64,000 nt of DNA, taken from assembly GCA_024451685.1 (NCBI GenBank), contig JAMXCW010000003.1, forward strand, positions 124,001 to 188,000. Direction: 5' to 3'. Positions 8,058 to 62,981 of this stretch are shown one piece after another (position 1 is the first letter of the stretch; each line of letters begins with the position of its first letter). The translations under genes were made by a program, and so were the position numbers. The DNA is from Candidatus Bathyanammoxibius amoris. Its GTDB lineage: Bacteria; Planctomycetota; Brocadiia; Brocadiales; Bathyanammoxibiaceae. Under the pieces are notes generated by a model. It searched no databases. It was given only the letters and a program-made list of their open reading frames with translations, and was not told where the DNA came from.

Positions 8058-8666
8058 CTACCTGTAAAGCCCGTGTTTTTTAATGTACAGTTCCACATTC
8101 TGCGGTACCATGTGGCTTATAGGGAGACCGCTTCTTAGTCTCCTCCTTATCTCCGTGGAGGAGATGTCGACAGGGGGGATTTCTACCTGAATCCGCCTTA
8201 TTTCCTCCACCTTTTCCCGTCCCAGTATGGGTACGAGCTGGTTCAGATTGTCCAGGGTGTTGCCGGGCCGGTTCACCACTACGATACGGCACAGCTCGGC
8301 AAGCCGTTTAATTTCCTTCCATGTAGGCAGCTCGTTTACGGTGTCCGTGCCGATTATGAGATGTGGGTCCGAGTCCCTGCCATAGAGTTCCGGGTGGGCC
8401 TCTACGGTGTCGATGGTATACGACTTGCCCTCGCGGGAGATCTCTACGTCCGAGACATCAAAGTGGTCGGTGTCTTTTATGGCCAGGGCGACCATCTCAT
8501 AGCGGTGCCGGGCGTCCACAATGTCATCTGCGTTCTTATGGGGCGGCTGACCCGAAGGGATGAACTGGACCCTGTCGAGTCCGTGCCTGTGATACACCTC
8601 TTCAGCGATGATGAGATGTCCGATATGAACGGGGTTAAAGGTTCCCCCCAGGATACCGATTCTCAT
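8058..8666 (-). CDS. nadD: Nicotinate-nucleotide adenylyltransferase NadD
   Basis: A 202-residue nucleotidyltransferase that adenylates nicotinate mononucleotide to deamido-NAD in NAD synthesis. The T/HxGH superfamily motif is GGTFNPVHIGHL at residues 7-18. FIPSGQPPHK (36-45) and the C-terminal ISSTEIRRRLRSG motif are also diagnostic, and the usual NadD ending (ELYIKKHGLY) is intact. It stands alone; genes often linked with nadD (obgE, proA, rsfS) are absent from the window. Confidence 0.93.
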   Translation of the reverse strand: MRIGILGGTFNPVHIGHLIIAEEVYHRHGLDRVQFIPSGQPPHKNADDIVDARHRYEMVALAIKDTDHFDVSDVEISREGKSYTIDTVEAHPELYGRDSDPHLIIGTDTVNELPTWKEIKRLAELCRIVVVNRPGNTLDNLNQLVPILGREKVEEIRRIQVEIPPVDISSTEIRRRLRSGLPISHMVPQNVELYIKKHGLYR

Positions 8667-8945
8667 GGGTTTATTCTCGGTTTGGTGTTGCCCTGCCTAG
8701 GTGTATAGATTATATTTTAACCACGGCGTAAGTCAACAAGAAGGCCGCAGCGACTGCCGTGTGCGCCCAAGTAATTACGTCCTGTGCGGCGGCTCTTTCT
8801 GGATGACCATGGATGACCGGAAAGATTTTTTAAAAAATGCTTGATGCCGCATGCAAGATGCGTACGCTGTTTCATGAGGAAATATTATACAGGCAGGGCC
8901 CAATACATTGAAGGATGCATAAGTAGAGAAAGGATGGTGCTTATA

Positions 8946-9392
8946 ATGAATTATATCACAAAGAGGCTGTTTGCCGTTGCCTTTGTGGTTTCAATTAGTT
9001 TGGCCTCAATTATGCCGTATACTCAGGCAGGTCAGGAATCTGTGAGTTCTGTGGAAGAAAATGTGGCCCAGTTGTTAAGTACAAGGAAATGCCCGGGTTG
9101 CGACCTGCACGGTGCCAACCTGAAGGGCGCCCAGCTTGAGAATGCAGACCTGAAAGGCGCCAACCTGAGCGGTGCGGATCTGATGAATGCCGAGCTGAGC
9201 GGCACCGATTTGAGCAACGCGGACCTGACGAACGCGAACCTGGAGGCCGCCGTCTTGAGTAATGCGAACCTGAACGGTGCCAAACTGGACGGTGCCCGGG
9301 TAATAAACGCGGGGTTTATCAGCGTCAGGGGCCTCACCCCGGAGCAGAAGGACGACCTTCGAAAGCGTGAGGCTATAGTGATTGATGATTAG
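8946..9392 (+). CDS. Exported pentapeptide-repeat protein 1 of 3 (CPGCDL type)
   Basis: A 148-residue protein with a signal peptide (MNYITKRL, then a hydrophobic core ending near TQAG). A linker with SVEENVAQLLSTRKCPGCDL follows, then about twelve A(D/N)LxX pentapeptide repeats (HGANLKGAQLENADL and onward) that should fold as a right-handed quadrilateral beta-helix. The C-terminal tail is GLTPEQKDDLRKREA. The two Cys of CPGCDL cap the helix and could form a disulfide in the periplasm. I chose ATG 8946 because its leader (GAGAAAGGATGGTG) matches those of the two paralogues downstream; an in-frame start at 8841 would add an unlikely 35-residue extension. Molecular function unknown. Confidence 0.85.
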   Translation: MNYITKRLFAVAFVVSISLASIMPYTQAGQESVSSVEENVAQLLSTRKCPGCDLHGANLKGAQLENADLKGANLSGADLMNAELSGTDLSNADLTNANLEAAVLSNANLNGAKLDGARVINAGFISVRGLTPEQKDDLRKREAIVIDD

Positions 9393-12492: not shown

Positions 12493-13593
12493 TTACGTGA
12501 AATCTTCTCTGGTCAGGACGACCCTGTTGCGTATACCGACGTTAATTATCAGGGAAAGGGCGAGCAGGGAGGACACCAGAGACGAGCCGCCATAACTCAC
12601 AAACGGGAGGTTAAGCCCGGTGATAGGCGCCACGCCAAGGGCCATCGCTATGTTTATAAATATCTGCGTGGAGAACATGGCTACGAACCCGATTAACACA
12701 AGCCGTCCCACGGGGTCCCGTGTCCTGTACGCAATCCCTAAAATGGCTATTATAAACACGAGAAAGATTATCATCACCCCGAACGTGCGGAGGAACCCCC
12801 ACTCCTCGGCTATTACCGAGAAAATGAAGTCCGTATGCGGTTCGGGGAGGATGTTGAGCTGTGTCTGGACCCCCTGTTTCCAGCCCTGTCCCAGTACGCC
12901 GCCGGAGCCAATGGCGACAAGTGACTGTAATCTATGATAGGCTGCGCCCCAGTCCTGGGTCTCGCTTGGCCAGATGAACCCGATTATCCGGGCCTTTTGA
13001 TACTCATGCAGCAGGAAGAACCATCCTAGCGGGAGCGCGGCAAGCCCCGCAGGTATCAGGAGCGAGAAGTGCTTTATGCGGGCGCCGGTAATGAATACCA
13101 TGGCAAAGAATATCGGGAGCAGTATAAGGCCGGAACCCAGGTCCGGCTGCATAAAGATAAGCGCCATCGGCAACAGCGTAAAGGCGAGTGATATTATGAG
13201 TATACTGAAGCGTTTGTACTTCTCTTTGTACATCAGATACCTTGCGAGCGCGAGCACGAGGATTATCTTCATGAACTCGGAGGGCTGAAAATTTACCACA
13301 CCGAGGTCAAACCACCTGTGTGTGCCGCGTATGGTGCTCCCGAGAAAGAGCACGGCTATCAGGGTCACAATGAATACGACATACAGTATGTATGCCTGAC
13401 GGACTATCTGCATGTAGTCCAACGCGAGCAGGCCGAAGAACAAGCCGAACCCTATGCCCATAAAGATGAGTTGCCGGAACGCGTAGGTCTGGGAAGACGC
13501 GCTCCAGACAAAAAAGAAGCCGATGGCCATGAGAGCGCATGCAGACCCGAAAACCAGCCAGTCAAATTCCCTTAAAAAATCTCTGGTCGCCAT
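12493..13593 (-). CDS. rodA: Peptidoglycan glycosyltransferase RodA (SEDS family)
   Basis: A 366-residue SEDS protein with about ten membrane helices. It polymerises lipid II into glycan strands in the elongasome, partnered by PBP2. Family landmarks include GSTIRGTHRWFDLGVVNFQPSEFMKI, FMQPDLGSGLILLPI with the essential-Asp region, KQGVQTQLNILPEPHTDFIFSVIAEEWG and the C-terminal LNLPFVSYGGSSLV. It follows mrdA with a 4-bp gap on the minus strand, the classical PBP2-RodA order. Length is normal. Confidence 0.95.
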   Translation of the reverse strand: MATRDFLREFDWLVFGSACALMAIGFFFVWSASSQTYAFRQLIFMGIGFGLFFGLLALDYMQIVRQAYILYVVFIVTLIAVLFLGSTIRGTHRWFDLGVVNFQPSEFMKIILVLALARYLMYKEKYKRFSILIISLAFTLLPMALIFMQPDLGSGLILLPIFFAMVFITGARIKHFSLLIPAGLAALPLGWFFLLHEYQKARIIGFIWPSETQDWGAAYHRLQSLVAIGSGGVLGQGWKQGVQTQLNILPEPHTDFIFSVIAEEWGFLRTFGVMIIFLVFIIAILGIAYRTRDPVGRLVLIGFVAMFSTQIFINIAMALGVAPITGLNLPFVSYGGSSLVSSLLALSLIINVGIRNRVVLTREDFT

Positions 13594-13597
13594 TGGT

Positions 13598-15550
13598 TTA
13601 CCTGTGAGTGTCAGCCTTCTCCGTTGCGACGAACTTTCTCCTCGCCCTTTCTATGTCATAAAGTCCAGAGACCAGTTTCCCGGCCATAGGCCCCGTTACC
13701 GCTCCCGAATGACCGGCGGCACGTTCAATGGTGATACAGAAGGCGTAGCGAGGGGCGTCAAACGGGGCATAGCCAACGAACCACAGGTGGTTTTTGTTGC
13801 TGTTGCCTATCTGTGCGGTCCCCGTCTTGCCGGCCGCCCTCAGTTTATCAAGACCCTTACGTTTCGCGGTGCCGCTTATCACAACCTGTCTCAGAGCCCT
13901 CTGGATGGCAATGAAATCTTCTTCGGGTATATCTATTATGTCCGGCCTGTCTGCCTTGTACTCTCGCAAGGTTACGCCGTCATCTGTAACGACCTTCTTC
14001 AGGAGGTGAGGACTGAGTACCACCCCGGCGTTTGCGACCGTGGATACCAGTTGCGCCATCTGCAGGGGGGTGACGAGCAGTTGACCCTGACCAATAGACA
14101 GGTTTAGTCTTTCACCGGCGTATTTTGGCAGTGGCACGTTACCCGATGCCTCATATGGAAGGTCTATGCCGGTCTTGTTGCCGAAGCCGAACGCCCTGGC
14201 CCACTCGTTCATTGCGGTGCCGCTGAGCCGGCGTGCCACATTAAAAAAATAGACGTTGCAGGAGTGTTCTATGCCCCTCAGAAGGTCTACCGAGCCGTGG
14301 AATGAGTGGCAGCGGAATTTGCGGCCGCCCAGGGTTATCGACCCGGAACACTGAAAACGGGTATCCAGGTCAATTTCACCCTCCGAGAGGGCTGTGAGGG
14401 CAGTTACTATCTTGAAGGCTGAGCCGGGCGGCAAGAGGGCCTGTATGGGACGGTTGAGCAGCGGCTTGCCGGGGTCGTTGAGTAGTCTGCCGTAATCCGC
14501 GGCAAAAGTGTTCGGGTTGAAGCCGGGATGACTGGCCATCGCCAGGACGTCGCCGCTGCGGGTATCTAAAACCACAATGGAACCGTTGTTTTTCCCCAAA
14601 ATTTCTTCAGCCAGGCGCTGTATGTCAAGGTCAATGGTCAGGAAGACGTCGTTTCCGTGTCTGGGAGGCATGTCAAATATGACCCTGTTTACTTCCAGGG
14701 TCTTGAGTGACAACTCCTCCATCTTCTTACCGGGGCTTCCGGTAAGGTCGAGGTCGTATTGGGCCTCAATTCCTGACCTGCCGATGTGGTCGTTCGGTGA
14801 TAACGCAAGACTCATGTGGTGATGTAATTTCTCGTCGTCTCCGCTGGCCGGTTGCAGGGTGTTCTTTGCGTTCTTGAGTTCTTCCGGGGTGGGTTTTCCC
14901 ACATAGCCCAGGATATGCGAGGCGACGTTACTGTATGGATAGTACCTCTTGGGTCTGGTGTGGAGGGAGACGCCGGGGTATAAATCCGGGTGCATCTCAA
15001 CCTCCGCGGCCCTTTTTAGGGGGGCGTCCTTAACTATTGCATGTGATGCGTATTCTTCCTGAATCCTGACGGGTCTTTTATGTCGCTTCTGCACCTGCGC
15101 CTTGATCTTCTCCACACGGTTTATGATTTCTTCCGCTTGGCTGAGTAACTGTTGCGGGGTCCGGCCCAGGAGTTTCGAGAGCCTGGATACCCACAGCCCC
15201 ATACCATCTTCATTGTGGCAGGAATCACACCCGGCGGAGAGGTTTTTGTGGGCCTTAAGTCTGGAGAGGGGAGGTGTCAATTCTCCTTTGGAGCGCAGGT
15301 GGCCGTAGAGAAGGTTTTTGTAGGCTACCGTGATATCAAAGGCAGGTTCTTCAACCGCCAGCGGCCTTCCGAGACGGTCGTAAATATTGCCCCTTCGCGC
15401 CGGTACGGAGTAGTCCCTCAGCAGGCGCTGCTGCGATATGCCGCTGTACTTGGCGCCCTCAAAAATTTGCAGGTATCCAAGCCTTATCACCAGCAGTGTG
15501 AAGGATGCGATGACAAGAGCGAAGATTATCTTTAGTCTGTTAGGGTACAT
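13598..15550 (-). CDS. mrdA: Penicillin-binding protein 2 (MrdA) with an in-built c-type heme motif
   Basis: A 650-residue class B PBP, the elongasome transpeptidase. It has one membrane anchor (residues 8-26), the N-terminal pedestal with RRGNIYDRLGRPLA (52-65), and a transpeptidase domain with all three active-site motifs: S377-A-F-K380, S430-C-N432 and K575-T-G577. Unusually, residues 107-114 read GCDSCHNE, a canonical CxxCH c-heme attachment site (C108, C111, H112) on the periplasmic side, in an insertion just before the LLGRTPQQL helix. A separate Cys pair, C401 and C414, lies in the transpeptidase domain. The gene is 7 bp from mreD and 4 bp from rodA. The window also encodes ccsA-resB, the apparatus that could attach the heme. 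Confidence 0.95.
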   Translation of the reverse strand: MYPNRLKIIFALVIASFTLLVIRLGYLQIFEGAKYSGISQQRLLRDYSVPARRGNIYDRLGRPLAVEEPAFDITVAYKNLLYGHLRSKGELTPPLSRLKAHKNLSAGCDSCHNEDGMGLWVSRLSKLLGRTPQQLLSQAEEIINRVEKIKAQVQKRHKRPVRIQEEYASHAIVKDAPLKRAAEVEMHPDLYPGVSLHTRPKRYYPYSNVASHILGYVGKPTPEELKNAKNTLQPASGDDEKLHHHMSLALSPNDHIGRSGIEAQYDLDLTGSPGKKMEELSLKTLEVNRVIFDMPPRHGNDVFLTIDLDIQRLAEEILGKNNGSIVVLDTRSGDVLAMASHPGFNPNTFAADYGRLLNDPGKPLLNRPIQALLPPGSAFKIVTALTALSEGEIDLDTRFQCSGSITLGGRKFRCHSFHGSVDLLRGIEHSCNVYFFNVARRLSGTAMNEWARAFGFGNKTGIDLPYEASGNVPLPKYAGERLNLSIGQGQLLVTPLQMAQLVSTVANAGVVLSPHLLKKVVTDDGVTLREYKADRPDIIDIPEEDFIAIQRALRQVVISGTAKRKGLDKLRAAGKTGTAQIGNSNKNHLWFVGYAPFDAPRYAFCITIERAAGHSGAVTGPMAGKLVSGLYDIERARRKFVATEKADTHR

Positions 15551-15557
15551 GAGATTA

Positions 15558-16052
15558 TCAGAGCAGGTCCCGCCTGAGGTGCAGCGGCCTGAACTTTCTA
15601 AAAAGGAAATAGGGTGCCGTGGCCCACGCGGCGGTGTAAGCCGAACCCGCGAAAACGTTTAAAATCATGGGAGACGGGGCAATCGTCCCGTAGTAGAGCC
15701 ACATAAAGAGCGCCGAACCACCCCTGTAGATGATGGAGGCTATGAGTACGACGAGTAGCTGCATCAGTATGTTGCCGGTATATACCTTGTGTCTTAGAAG
15801 ACCTATGAGGATGACGATTACAATGAAGAACGAAGCGTTCACGCCGAGAGGCCCCTCGGTGAGGATATCCTTGGAAAGACCCATTATGCAGGCGGTTACG
15901 CTTGCCTCAGAGAGGTCCAGGTTCAGTGCCGCAAGGACTGCGAAGATAAGGAAAAAGTCCGGCTGTATACCCAGAAACCCAATCTGGTTGAACGTCGTGC
16001 TCTCCAGGATGGAGATAAATAACGCACAGGCTATCAGGATTATCCACAGCAT
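15558..16052 (-). CDS. mreD: Rod-shape-determining protein MreD
   Basis: A 164-residue integral membrane protein with about five helices and the usual MreD layout: an N-terminal helix, then NQIGFLGIQPDFFLIFAVLAALN, an acidic loop, GLSKDILTEGPLGVNASFFIV, and a last helix ending in a basic tail. MreD links MreC and MreB to RodA/PBP2. The identification rests on topology, the conserved PDFFLI and GLxxDxL segments and its place between mreC (25 bp gap) and mrdA (7 bp gap). Confidence 0.9.
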   Translation of the reverse strand: MLWIILIACALFISILESTTFNQIGFLGIQPDFFLIFAVLAALNLDLSEASVTACIMGLSKDILTEGPLGVNASFFIVIVILIGLLRHKVYTGNILMQLLVVLIASIIYRGGSALFMWLYYGTIAPSPMILNVFAGSAYTAAWATAPYFLFRKFRPLHLRRDLL

Positions 16053-16077: not shown

Positions 16078-16908
16078 CTACTTCTTCAGTACAAGAACGG
16101 TGTTTATCCTGGCAGGGTTCACCCTGGGCCTGAGTTTTAGTGTACTGTAGGGAGAACCCTCCTTTGCAATGTCTTCTGTCACGGTGGCTATAAGCAGCGA
16201 GTCCGGGAATATCCCGCCAATGGATGACGATACTACCTTGTATCCCTTCTCCACCCTTTGTCCCCATCTTGACAGGTACTTGAGCCTGCATGAGTTTCCG
16301 GAGCCTCCCTCGACTATACCGACGTCTTCCGTTTCCAGAATGCGCGCGGGGACCTTCGAGGCCGGGTCCGTTATCAATATCACCCTGCTGGTGGATTTGC
16401 CGACGGTAGAAACCCTTCCTACAAGCGCGGCATTGGCAATCACCACACTGTTCTCGGTGACACCGTGTCGTGAGCCCACGTCAATCAGCATACTCTTTCT
16501 CTGGTCGGAGGTGTCATACGCGACCACGTTAGCAAGTAGCGGTTTCTGTTCCAGGACCCCTTCCTTGTAGTATTCCGTTACTGAAGACAGCTTCGTCTGC
16601 AGGCGGTCTATAGTTGTCTTTTGGGCCACGATCACGTTTTCCAGGATGAAGACGTCCTCCTCCAGGTCGTTTACTTTAGAAGAGGTATTCCAGGAACGCG
16701 GTAGCCAGATAAGGGTCTTCTGAACAGCGGTACCTGCTGTAAGGAACACCTTCTGGATGGGCGCAAGAGGTCTGGAGAGAGTGAGCTTTATATGATCGGA
16801 GACCCTTGACGGGATGGCCAGCAGTGACAGGCATACTATGAGAAGGACTATTGTGGGCAAGAAGATTTTGAGAAAGCGTTTCTTTTTGTTATTCCTCCGA
16901 GTTCTCAT
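16078..16908 (-). CDS. mreC: Rod-shape-determining protein MreC
   Basis: A 276-residue bitopic protein: a basic cytoplasmic N-terminus (MRTRRNNKKKRFLK), one membrane helix, a coiled coil (about 70-105), then the periplasmic beta-domain with VVAYDTSDQRKSMLIDVGSRHGVTENSVVI and GLVGRVSTVGKSTSRVILITDP-type phrases. MreC scaffolds PBP2 and activates it by binding its N-terminal pedestal. I place the start at ATG 16908, which overlaps the mreB stop by 20 bp; an upstream ATG at 16992 would put 28 atypical residues inside mreB. Translational coupling to mreB is likely. Confidence 0.92.
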   Translation of the reverse strand: MRTRRNNKKKRFLKIFLPTIVLLIVCLSLLAIPSRVSDHIKLTLSRPLAPIQKVFLTAGTAVQKTLIWLPRSWNTSSKVNDLEEDVFILENVIVAQKTTIDRLQTKLSSVTEYYKEGVLEQKPLLANVVAYDTSDQRKSMLIDVGSRHGVTENSVVIANAALVGRVSTVGKSTSRVILITDPASKVPARILETEDVGIVEGGSGNSCRLKYLSRWGQRVEKGYKVVSSSIGGIFPDSLLIATVTEDIAKEGSPYSTLKLRPRVNPARINTVLVLKK

Positions 16909-17944
16909 CGCGTAATATGTCTTTATACAGGTCAAGATTTTCCAGTAGCACTCCTGTACCCCTGGCCACCGCCGTAAGCGGGTCGTCCGCAATGTGGACG
17001 GGTATGCCGGTCTCTTCCTGAAGTAGCCTGTCCATTCCCCTTAAAAGCGCTCCACCACCTGCCAGTACCATGCCGTGCTCCAGCAGGTCTGATGCCAGTT
17101 CCGGCGTGGTCTGTTCAAGAGTGGTCTTTACTGCCTCGATAATCTGGTCAAGGGGTTCGCTCAGTGCCTCTCTTATCTCCTCAGATGTGACCGTGACGGA
17201 TCTTGGAAGGCCCGCGATGAGGTCTCTGCCCCTTACGGCACCGGTGGTTTCGCCGTTTGTCGAATAGGCGGAGCCTATCCCCATCTTTATACTTTCTGCG
17301 GTGCGGTGGCCGATATCAAGGTTATGTTGCGAGCGCATGTATTTTATTATAGCCTCATCCATCTCGTCGCCCGCCACGCGCAGACTTACCTGGGTGAACA
17401 CGTCACCCAGGGAGATGACGGCCACCTCCGTCGTGCCCCCGCCAATGTCCACTATCATCTGGGCGGTGGGTTCACATATGGGAAGGTCGCAGCCTATTGC
17501 GGCCGCCTTCGGCTCACTGAGCAGGTACACGTCGCGTGCGCCTGAACGCTCCAGTGAGTTTACCACGGCACGTTTTTCAACGGCAGTTATCCCGGCGGGT
17601 ATTGCGACTATTACACGCGGCTTGATGCCCCACTTCCGCTTGTGTACCTTACGTATAAAAAACCGCAGCATGGCCTCGGTAAGGTCGAAGTCGGCAACGA
17701 CGCCGTCCTTCAGCGGACGTGTAACGGATATTGTGGAAGGGGCCTTCTCAAACATGGCCTTTGCGGTGTTTCCAACGGCCTTCCCGCCCAGCAGGATGTC
17801 ACTCGTCCCCGGTCTTACCGCCACCACGCTGGGTTCAAAAAGGACTACCCCCCGGCCGGGCATGCAAATGAGCGTATTCACCGTGCCGAGGTCTATGCCA
17901 ATGTCCGAACTCATGACTCCCATAAAGAAATGCATTGGATGCAT
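16889..17944 (-). CDS. mreB: Rod-shape-determining actin homologue MreB
   Basis: A 351-residue bacterial actin that forms membrane-bound filaments guiding the elongasome. Nucleotide-binding motifs are clear: DIGIDLGTVNTLI (phosphate 1), MIVDIGGGTTEVAVISLG (phosphate 2) and VLAGGGALLRGMDRLL (adenosine). The start at ATG 17944 is supported by a GAGGTGAG Shine-Dalgarno 4-5 nt upstream, although most MreB proteins begin about ten residues later (MSSDIGID). The extra N-terminus MHPMHFFMGV is hydrophobic and Met-rich and might serve as the membrane anchor seen as an amphipathic helix in many Gram-negative MreB proteins. First gene of the shape operon. Confidence 0.97.
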   Translation of the reverse strand: MHPMHFFMGVMSSDIGIDLGTVNTLICMPGRGVVLFEPSVVAVRPGTSDILLGGKAVGNTAKAMFEKAPSTISVTRPLKDGVVADFDLTEAMLRFFIRKVHKRKWGIKPRVIVAIPAGITAVEKRAVVNSLERSGARDVYLLSEPKAAAIGCDLPICEPTAQMIVDIGGGTTEVAVISLGDVFTQVSLRVAGDEMDEAIIKYMRSQHNLDIGHRTAESIKMGIGSAYSTNGETTGAVRGRDLIAGLPRSVTVTSEEIREALSEPLDQIIEAVKTTLEQTTPELASDLLEHGMVLAGGGALLRGMDRLLQEETGIPVHIADDPLTAVARGTGVLLENLDLYKDILRDENSEE

Positions 17945-59414: not shown

Positions 59415-60152
59415 ATGAACGTAGGAACGAAACTCAGATTACTTAGAGCGGAGAGGGGCTGGACAAAGTCCCATGCCGCCAGGGAGGCCGGTATACCTAT
59501 ATCCAGCTACCGAAACTATGAAAAGGAGTCACTGAACCGCAAGCTCCCTGGAAAATCCGCGCTGGCACTTGCCAAGACCTTCGGGGTGTCACTTGAGTAC
59601 CTGCTTGATGACGTGAAGGACTACCCTCCGGTCCCGGCCAGGGACAGGATTATCCAGCTGGTTGGGGAACCTGAGAAAAAGGCGTCTGGTACCGGGGTTG
59701 AGGGCGATACCCGGCGGAGGGTGGCGGTATCACGGTACGGTGATAGGGGAAATGACGGTATAAATATAGTTGGTCATGTGGCAGCGGGAGAGACGGAGGT
59801 AGTCTTCGATGATGCGGGCCTGCCCACCGGCGGCTCCATTGACGAACCCCTTGAAAGAATGCCCGATGTTACTGACAGCAACGCCTACGGCCTGATAGTC
59901 AGCGGGAACAGTATGCTGCCGGGTTATCCGGAGGGTACAAAGGTGGTTGTATGTCCGTCGCACAAGGTGAAGTCGGGGGACGTAGTTATCTGCCGTCTTA
60001 ACAGCACGGGAAAGGTATATGTAAAAGAGATTGCCTTCTCCCAGGACATGATTATACTCAAGTCTCACAACGCAACTGCCTATGAACCGGTGGCGGTACC
60101 CAGGGAGGATATAGTCTTTTGTCACAAGGTGGTCTGGGCAAAAAGACCCTAG
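59415..60152 (+). CDS. XRE-type HTH / S24 peptidase phage-type repressor
   Basis: A 245-residue cI/LexA-like repressor. Residues 5-68 are an XRE HTH (KLRLLRAERGWTKSHAAREAGIPISSYRNYEKESLN), then a linker, then a S24 domain (about 120-245). The self-cleavage site looks like AAG-E in GHVAAGETE, the catalytic Ser is in SGNSMLPGYPEGT, and the Lys is in KVYVKEIAFSQ. If active it would be inactivated on DNA damage, as cI or HdiR are. The DNA between it and the divergent HTH gene holds three matching dyads. The downstream cytochrome gene overlaps its last codons by 34 nt. Confidence 0.88.
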   Translation: MNVGTKLRLLRAERGWTKSHAAREAGIPISSYRNYEKESLNRKLPGKSALALAKTFGVSLEYLLDDVKDYPPVPARDRIIQLVGEPEKKASGTGVEGDTRRRVAVSRYGDRGNDGINIVGHVAAGETEVVFDDAGLPTGGSIDEPLERMPDVTDSNAYGLIVSGNSMLPGYPEGTKVVVCPSHKVKSGDVVICRLNSTGKVYVKEIAFSQDMIILKSHNATAYEPVAVPREDIVFCHKVVWAKRP

Positions 60153-60502
60153 TAGTTTTGATCCTGCTATACCTCTTTCTCTTTACGCCACTTAACAGTG
60201 AGACGCAGGCCGTGGAAGAATCCCCCAGAGAACTCTTTGAGCGTGTGTGTGCCATGTGCCACGGCTGGGCTGTAGAAAACTTCTTCATGTGCGAGGGGGA
60301 GGCCCATGTGATACCGCCCATCTGTCCCCCTCACACGAGTCACTGGCTGCCCGCGGTGCTTACGGTGGCCACGTACCAGGTCTATGTTGGGGGGGGCGAG
60401 GTAGGTTTTCCGCTGATTCCCAGAAAGGACGTCTTGAAATTGGCCCAATACCTGGACGAAAACTACCCGAAAGAGCCCATATGCGCGAAATCGGGAGGTT
60501 AA
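60119..60502 (+). CDS. Small exported monoheme cytochrome c-like protein
   Basis: A 127-residue exported protein. A hydrophobic signal (KKTLVVLILLYLFLFTPLNS, cleavage near TQA) is followed by ELFERVCAMCHGWAV with C44, C47 and H48 as a c-heme site. The rest has several Cys and His (FMCEGEAHVIPPICPPHTSHW) and closes with DVLKLAQYLDENYP, the last helix common in class I cytochromes. The candidate distal Met is not obvious; the heme may have another ligand. Its start is a TTG at 60119 within the repressor gene, so translation may be coupled to it. Electron partner is unknown. Confidence 0.75.
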   Translation: MSQGGLGKKTLVVLILLYLFLFTPLNSETQAVEESPRELFERVCAMCHGWAVENFFMCEGEAHVIPPICPPHTSHWLPAVLTVATYQVYVGGGEVGFPLIPRKDVLKLAQYLDENYPKEPICAKSGG

Positions 60503-61178: not shown

Positions 61179-62153
61179 TCAGTATTTATGGGCCAGTTTC
61201 TGTACCAGTCTGAAGATTATCATTACCACACCTGCGGCGAAGAGCAGGGTTACCCCGAGCGCAATGGGCATGCTCGGGTTTTCCTTCAGGCTTACCATCA
61301 CGGCGTTGTATATCTGGACGTCCTCAAGCTGCACCTCGGCACCCTCGATTAACAGAGGGGCTTCCCTGTCCATACGGACATAATGTTGCTGTGCATCAGC
61401 CATCCCCGGTCTTGTAACGATGGCTGCCACGGGAAATTCTATCTTTGGCGGCATCATGAGCCCGGCCACTATCGCGGGTGAATCGCCGATGTAAAATTCT
61501 TCATACAACTTCAACTTCCGGGTCATGTTGTTAATCTTCAGTGTTACGTTCCTGGGTGAACTTTCGTACTGCCTGAGGAGAAACTCCCTGGCCCCAAGGT
61601 CAAAGACCACTGGCTGGTTGTACCCCAGTATCCTGTCGAATTCCTCCTCACCGCGTTTAACCCTGATAGTGGCCCTGACCTCCCTGGGCATACCGTTGGG
61701 AAAGGAGACAACCTCAATCGCCTTAACGCTGAGTTCGACGTCGCCGCATTTAACGGGTTCATTAGTTATGGTAATGGGTCTCCCGCTAGTCGAGTACAAC
61801 CCGCCCACCAGATGGGCGAGCAGCGTGACCACAAACGCAAGGTGCACCACAGCGCCGCCGTACAGCGTGACATTTTTTACACCCGCCCTCAGTTTGACCG
61901 CCACCGAGTCAATGGTGCAGAAGAAGGCGTTTATCCCGTAGAGTACAAACCCGGCAAACAACAGATAGAACCAACTGTTGACCGGGCTTACGTGCTGGAA
62001 GAAGAAGTTTATGTCCTCCCCCTGAAGCTCCCGGTAGTAACCGGGCATAAAGTTCATCCAGAGGCTTCCGAAGATGAGCAGTCCCGTTGTGGCAAACCCC
62101 AACTGCACGCCCAGCTTCCTCGATTTCAGTATGTCGTAGAGTCTGTAAAGCAT
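61179..62153 (-). CDS. resB: Cytochrome c biogenesis protein ResB (Ccs1)
   Basis: A 324-residue membrane protein of the ResB family, partner of CcsA in System II heme delivery and thioether ligation. Helices at about 15-35, 65-85, 98-118 and 290-312 bound a periplasmic beta-domain (GDVELSVKAIEVVSFPNGMPREVRATIRV, then LREFLLRQYESSPRNVTLKI-like text). It lies 6 bp downstream of ccsA. This ResB is shorter than Bacillus types but close to proteobacterial short forms. It would mature the cytochrome at 60119 and the heme motif in PBP2. Confidence 0.85.
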   Translation of the reverse strand: MLYRLYDILKSRKLGVQLGFATTGLLIFGSLWMNFMPGYYRELQGEDINFFFQHVSPVNSWFYLLFAGFVLYGINAFFCTIDSVAVKLRAGVKNVTLYGGAVVHLAFVVTLLAHLVGGLYSTSGRPITITNEPVKCGDVELSVKAIEVVSFPNGMPREVRATIRVKRGEEEFDRILGYNQPVVFDLGAREFLLRQYESSPRNVTLKINNMTRKLKLYEEFYIGDSPAIVAGLMMPPKIEFPVAAIVTRPGMADAQQHYVRMDREAPLLIEGAEVQLEDVQIYNAVMVSLKENPSMPIALGVTLLFAAGVVMIIFRLVQKLAHKY

Positions 62154-62159
62154 CTTGGT

Positions 62160-62981
62160 TTATCCAAAGCTGTGGGAGCTGGAGATAAGGAAACTCGTCC
62201 CCACGTAGGTCATTAACATGATAAGGAACCCGGCGACTGCCAGGTGCGGTTTATAGGGCTTAAGGGCGGGCCAGTTGTCCACGTGGATGCAGGCCGAATA
62301 AAACAGCCACACGATTACAGACCATACCACCTTTGCGTCCCACAGGAAGTAACTGCCCCAGGCCACATAACCCCACAACCCTCCAAAGAGCATCGAGACC
62401 GAAAACCCCAGCATCCCGTAGAGAAAACCCCTGTCAATGATATCGATCATGTCTCGACCTCGCGCCTCTCCGGGCGGGCTTGACGGATTTCCGGCGGATG
62501 CTGATGATGTCCCCCGCGGTCCGGCTCCCAAGAAGTAGGCCGAGGCCGCCGCGAAGCTTAAGGTCCAGTACGCGTAACACATAAACGACAGCGGGACGTG
62601 GAGCGTGTACCAGATGGTTATCATCAGTGGCGGAGGATAATTAAGCCCCTTCGGCCAGAAGGCCGCGGCCACCAGGAAGACATAGCCCACACTGAAGAGC
62701 ACCGTCCTGAAGATGGGCACCTCCACATCTCTGTATATGTAGAGCAAGATGAACACAGTTATGGAAAATCCGTAAAATGACTCAAACTTATTTGTAAGTG
62801 GCAAATACTCTATGGCCATACCGCGCATGGCGAAGGCGGTGAGCTGAATGCCCAGCCCCAGGGCAAGTACAAAGGTACGTGTGCCCTTCCCGGAGAAGTT
62901 GCAGTACCAGTACGCCGTATATATGCCCACTGACAGCCAGTAACAGAGTATGGACAGGTTGATAAGACTCTTCGAGTCCAA
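62160..62981 (-). CDS. ccsA: Cytochrome c biogenesis protein CcsA/CcsB-type heme handling protein
   Basis: A 273-residue membrane protein with about eight helices. The heme-handling WWD-like region reads WGYVAWGSYFLWDAKVVWSVIVW near residue 202. It is close to the canonical WGxxWxWDPKExW except that Pro-Lys-Glu is Ala-Lys-Val. System II CcsA-type proteins export heme and present it to apocytochromes held by ResB. An acidic/Ser-Ala-Gly-rich loop (GPRGTSSASAGNPSSPPGEARG) interrupts the cytoplasmic side. First gene of the ccsA-resB pair. Confidence 0.85.
   Translation of the reverse strand: MDSKSLINLSILCYWLSVGIYTAYWYCNFSGKGTRTFVLALGLGIQLTAFAMRGMAIEYLPLTNKFESFYGFSITVFILLYIYRDVEVPIFRTVLFSVGYVFLVAAAFWPKGLNYPPPLMITIWYTLHVPLSFMCYAYWTLSFAAASAYFLGAGPRGTSSASAGNPSSPPGEARGRDMIDIIDRGFLYGMLGFSVSMLFGGLWGYVAWGSYFLWDAKVVWSVIVWLFYSACIHVDNWPALKPYKPHLAVAGFLIMLMTYVGTSFLISSSHSFG

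Follow-up and report, generated by a model that had tools for sequence, protein, structure and literature searches.

The closest described relatives of the protein considered here are the elongasome PBP2 (MrdA, TIGR03423) enzymes of E. coli and H. pylori. In H. pylori PBP2, MreC is bound via Leu69, Phe71, Tyr127, and Tyr134 once the anchor sways about 15 Å away (PMC5626683), while Gln99 of the E. coli enzyme lies within the proposed MreC site and also where the map is most variable (PMC10449877). This literature on the head subdomain agrees with a first-pass annotation of the present locus, which had stated that MreC binds the N-terminal region of PBP2. Precedents for metal and redox dependence also exist among class B PBPs. 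The A. baumannii PBP2 is a metal-dependent enzyme required for rod shape, whose transpeptidase domain holds zinc close to the active site through D350, D365, H371, and C384 (PMC9974482). Redox control of such enzymes has a precedent in the regulatory disulfide in the transpeptidase domain of SpoVD/PBP2, mentioned in PMC5626683. The paper on anammox peptidoglycan reported Pbp2 and Pbp3 homologues, and the word "cytochrome" is absent from its main text (PMC4432595). A search of the open-access literature, which leaves out most subscription papers, returned nothing relevant on a heme-containing PBP.

The window, that is, the whole stretch of 64,000 nucleotides that was analysed, encodes a PBP2 of 650 aa (mrdA, 13598..15550, - strand) that shares the fold, the catalytic motifs, the gene neighbourhood, and the head-anchor N-terminal region of the E. 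coli and H. pylori enzymes, but adds an insertion of about 35 residues with a heme-c motif in the head. The protein scored 495.3 bits against TIGR03423 (pbp2_mrdA), for which the cut-off is 455, and was matched by PF00905 and PF03717. The SxxK, SxN, and KTG motifs, described as intact in the first-pass annotation, were located at S377xxK380, S430-C431-N432, and K575-T-G577. Since a gene for hydrazine synthase alpha (PF18582) is present in the genome, the organism is an anammox bacterium, and its assignment to the order Brocadiales is also inferred from its relatives. Two genomes outside Brocadiales, G064 and G065, had 11 and 16 matches to this hydrazine synthase alpha domain, respectively, in long frames.

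The gene order is mreB-mreC-mreD-mrdA-rodA, all on the - strand, with mrdA between mreD and rodA. The glycosyltransferase partner of PBP2, rodA (12493..13593; PF01098, 297 bits), mreD (15558..16052; PF04093, 30.6 bits), and mreC (16078..16992; PF04085, 127.4 bits), whose product is the presumed head-binding partner, all lack CxxCH. With its listed TTG start, mreC runs into mreB; a start further inside the frame is probably the true one. The mreB gene itself (16889..17944) was assigned by its position and MreB-like sequence rather than by a library scan. A search of the whole genome found one further class B PBP, which is FtsI-like and lacks CxxC. Thus, the CxxCH motif sits in what is apparently the sole elongasome transpeptidase. 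After rodA lies a gene of the SdiA-regulated family (PF06977; 11718-12485, -), and an ORF of similar size occupies the equivalent position in the close relative L033, a Planctomycetes MAG (8214-8981, +). Within the window PBP2, the four residues C401, C414, H418, and C431 do not vary across the A2 alignment and coincide with the A. baumannii zinc ligands, so that the protein may hold a second site by the active site, either a CCHC zinc site or a disulfide.

A membrane helix was read from the sequence at about residues 6-28. In PBP2 enzymes, the rest of the protein lies outside the cytoplasm, and this topology together with the helix implies the same for the remainder of the window protein, including the presumed heme-attachment motif. 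The motif, C108-D-S-C111-H112 as had been reported, is encoded by nucleotides 15215..15229 (-) and would provide two heme-binding cysteines followed by a proximal histidine.

We collected PBP2 sequences from the order, the class, and the phylum, and aligned 59 Brocadiales sequences that were 39-72% identical to the window protein. C108 and C111 were each present in 59/59 sequences and H112 in 58/59. These three were the only columns conserved in at least 95% of the sequences among the 42 columns 78-119, while the others averaged 45% identity. TGC and TGT had roughly equal shares of the cysteine codons, and the histidine column contained 40 CAT, 18 CAC, and one CGT codon. Since the codons vary synonymously, the three residues are held by selection. 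The residues between the two cysteines were variable, which is also typical of cytochromes c, and apart from flanking aromatic and leucine positions the insertion conserves little beyond the heme residues. In total, 59 of 60 members of the order carry CXXCH, including G048, whose frameshifted gene stood outside the alignment and still reads CGECH. The alignment of homologues that the first-pass annotation had proposed therefore gave a conserved motif, and close relatives lacking both Cys and His, which would have spoken against a heme site, were not what it returned. The one exception, G033 (PBP2 locus L064), has CRECR with a CGT codon and keeps the cysteine pair, while G019 from the same genus has CKECH. 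The G033 genome is a single contig of 99% completeness, and its CRECR points either to natural loss of the histidine for heme or to a base error. Consequently, either heme is not strictly required in G033 or the base is wrong. At the locus L051 (genome G009), the upstream His and the CxxCH are separated by some 20 additional residues (PPSTPKSPLSPPLSKGGEGGFKV), which may be a translated dispersed repeat.

The motif lies in an insertion spanning residues 78-119 (15194..15319, -), a stretch about 35 residues longer than its counterpart in the sister family f9. The profile alignment to solved PBP2s was interrupted at this point, between E. coli residues ~94 and ~130, and on these alignments the insertion is placed in the MreC-binding head subdomain. 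The earlier description of the motif as part of an exported N-terminal insertion thus holds, with the insertion now assigned to the head and to a particular lineage. An AlphaFold2 model built from three sequences had a pLDDT of 28.8, which is too low to interpret.

Outside Brocadiales, one genome of a sister order (G065, locus L042) has a clearly homologous PBP2 insertion with two motifs, CAQCH and CLECH, and with the landmarks NLLY, HK, CxxCH, and W in common with the Brocadiales insertions. CxxCH was absent from the 10 other class members having the region and from 43/43 PBP2 ORFs of other Planctomycetota, some of these ORFs being partial. The sister families f6, f7, and f9 lack the insertion. 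In the tree, L042 grouped with the motif-less family f9 and not with Brocadiales (96/97). Therefore, either one ancestral insertion was lost in f9 or the segment was transferred. With its two closely spaced motifs, the L042 protein resembles the doubled-CXXCH cytochromes (PF09699, TIGR01905), but its insertion alone scored just under their cut-offs (19.9 vs 20.6 bits and 22.6 vs 25.2 bits, respectively), and the Brocadiales PBP2s have a single motif. The single-motif insertion of the window protein, searched alone, matched no cytochrome family, including these two. The window protein is therefore classed as a PBP2 with a probable heme-c site and is left outside the doubled-CXXCH family.

A candidate distal ligand is His101 (15248..15250, -), seven residues before the first motif cysteine. 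A histidine equivalent to it was found in 44/44 Brocadiales sequences outside family f3, and also in L042. Family f3, presumed to be the Scalindua-type family, has no histidine at this place (0/15) and instead has a cysteine at about position 86, 22 residues before the motif, in 15/15 sequences. The simplest reading of this Cys for His pattern suggests a swap of the distal ligand.

With regard to heme attachment, the genome contains System II genes. The first-pass annotation had placed a ccsA-resB pair in the window, and one half of this pair stands. The gene at 62160..62981 (-) encodes a CcsA-type heme-handling protein (PF01578, 73.4 bits) with the modified anammox motif WGYVAWGSYFLWDAKVVW, whereas the 324-aa protein of the neighbouring gene (61179..62153, -) had no Pfam match and is a probable short CcsB partner, judged by its length, adjacency, and single VN; the ResB-family genes that Pfam recognises lie elsewhere in the genome. 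Both the modified CcsA motif and a short CcsB have been described for anammox bacteria (PMC4222556). The motif WGYVAWGSYFLWDAKVVW was found in 51/60 Brocadiales genomes and in 0/13 other class members, a pattern confounded by ancestry, and G065 lacks it despite its two CxxCH.

In vitro, CcsBA attaches heme to CXXCH peptides of 9 to 20 residues, requires the two cysteines as well as the histidine, and fails with the Cys18S, H19A, and H19K variants (PMC8112865). Because such short peptides suffice, an exported CXXCH in a cell of this kind is expected to receive heme, and the G033 protein is not. The conservation of the motif under selection, the System II genes, and the sufficiency of a short peptide together make it very likely that the anammox PBP2 carries a covalent c-type heme. 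That the protein also needs this heme in its head, whatever its exact role, we consider probable. A point against heme on PBP2 is that this enzyme has to act at the cytoplasmic membrane, while anammox CcsBA may reside elsewhere, in the anammoxosome membrane according to a published working model (PMC4222556). If PBP2 does receive heme, attachment would also take place at the periplasmic face of the cytoplasmic membrane, besides the anammoxosome, which might help explain why anammox genomes have two different CcsA-CcsB complexes.

In the mechanism that we propose, the N-terminal membrane helix would export PBP2, after which Cys108 and Cys111 would receive one heme from the System II synthase (CcsBA), His112 serving as the proximal ligand and probably His101, or the cysteine in family f3, as the distal ligand. 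The heme would then lie within the insertion of the head, the region that opens and closes and binds MreC in other bacteria, and its attachment, oxidation, or ligand state would set the head conformation. Elongation cross-linking would in turn depend on heme supply or the envelope redox state. The first-pass annotation had likewise suggested that a heme could make PBP2 sensitive to redox state or to ligands and couple elongation to electron transport. We prefer a regulatory to a merely structural role, as a tentative choice and a weak inference, for two reasons: the heme would sit in the moving, MreC-binding head of the sole synthase, which is presumably essential, and PBPs that depend on redox state or on a metal are known, with the SpoVD-type disulfide and the A. 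baumannii zinc site as examples. The putative heme differs from both in lying in the head and not in the transpeptidase domain. A more specific version, in which the heme is a sensor for envelope redox, nitric oxide, or the supply of heme and uses MreC to gate RodA-PBP2, is rather unlikely as it stands, and it is similarly doubtful that direct heme control of the wall synthase links the slow catabolism of anammox bacteria to cell elongation.

A purely structural heme is about equally likely as a regulatory one. It would share the attachment step and act as a staple that lets the small head insertion fold, carrying no signal. That conservation is scarce outside the heme residues and the aromatic and leucine positions next to them is what would be expected if the heme formed the core of the insertion. 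However, PBP2 folding in general is independent of the insertion, as the families f6, f7, and f9 do without it, and the location in a moving, MreC-binding head invites a regulatory role.

Heme would not be involved at all if the cysteine pair formed a thiol-disulfide switch or a zinc site, for which the SpoVD disulfide mentioned in PMC5626683 and the zinc PBP2 (PMC9974482) serve as precedents, and G033 does retain the cysteine pair without the histidine. Nevertheless, we regard this as improbable, since it leaves unexplained both the near-invariant His112 directly after Cys111 and the doubled CxxCH of L042. Furthermore, the zinc site known from PBP2 corresponds to other residues, C401/C414/H418/C431, and in a System II cell an exported CXXCH would be expected to acquire heme.

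It is highly improbable that the PBP2 heme serves as an electron-transfer carrier at the cytoplasmic membrane. Cytochromes c are abundant in anammox cells (PMC4222556) and L042 has two predicted hemes side by side, but most species have a single heme motif, Pfam found no redox domain in the neighbouring genes, and a wall enzyme has no reason to relay electrons. Finally, one CxxCH in an individual protein could be accidental, but a chance motif or an assembly artefact was rejected as practically impossible, because the motif is common to genomes of five families with 39-72% protein identity.

Within the literature searched, a bound heme would make this the first penicillin-binding protein to contain one, and it would tie electron transport or heme supply in a concrete way to wall growth in the slow-growing, globally important anammox bacteria. 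Apart from PBP2, one other ORF of at least 100 aa in the window holds CxxCH. It encodes a small, apparently exported protein of 127 aa (60119-60502, +) that has one CAMCH, matches nothing in Pfam, and is possibly a monoheme cytochrome.
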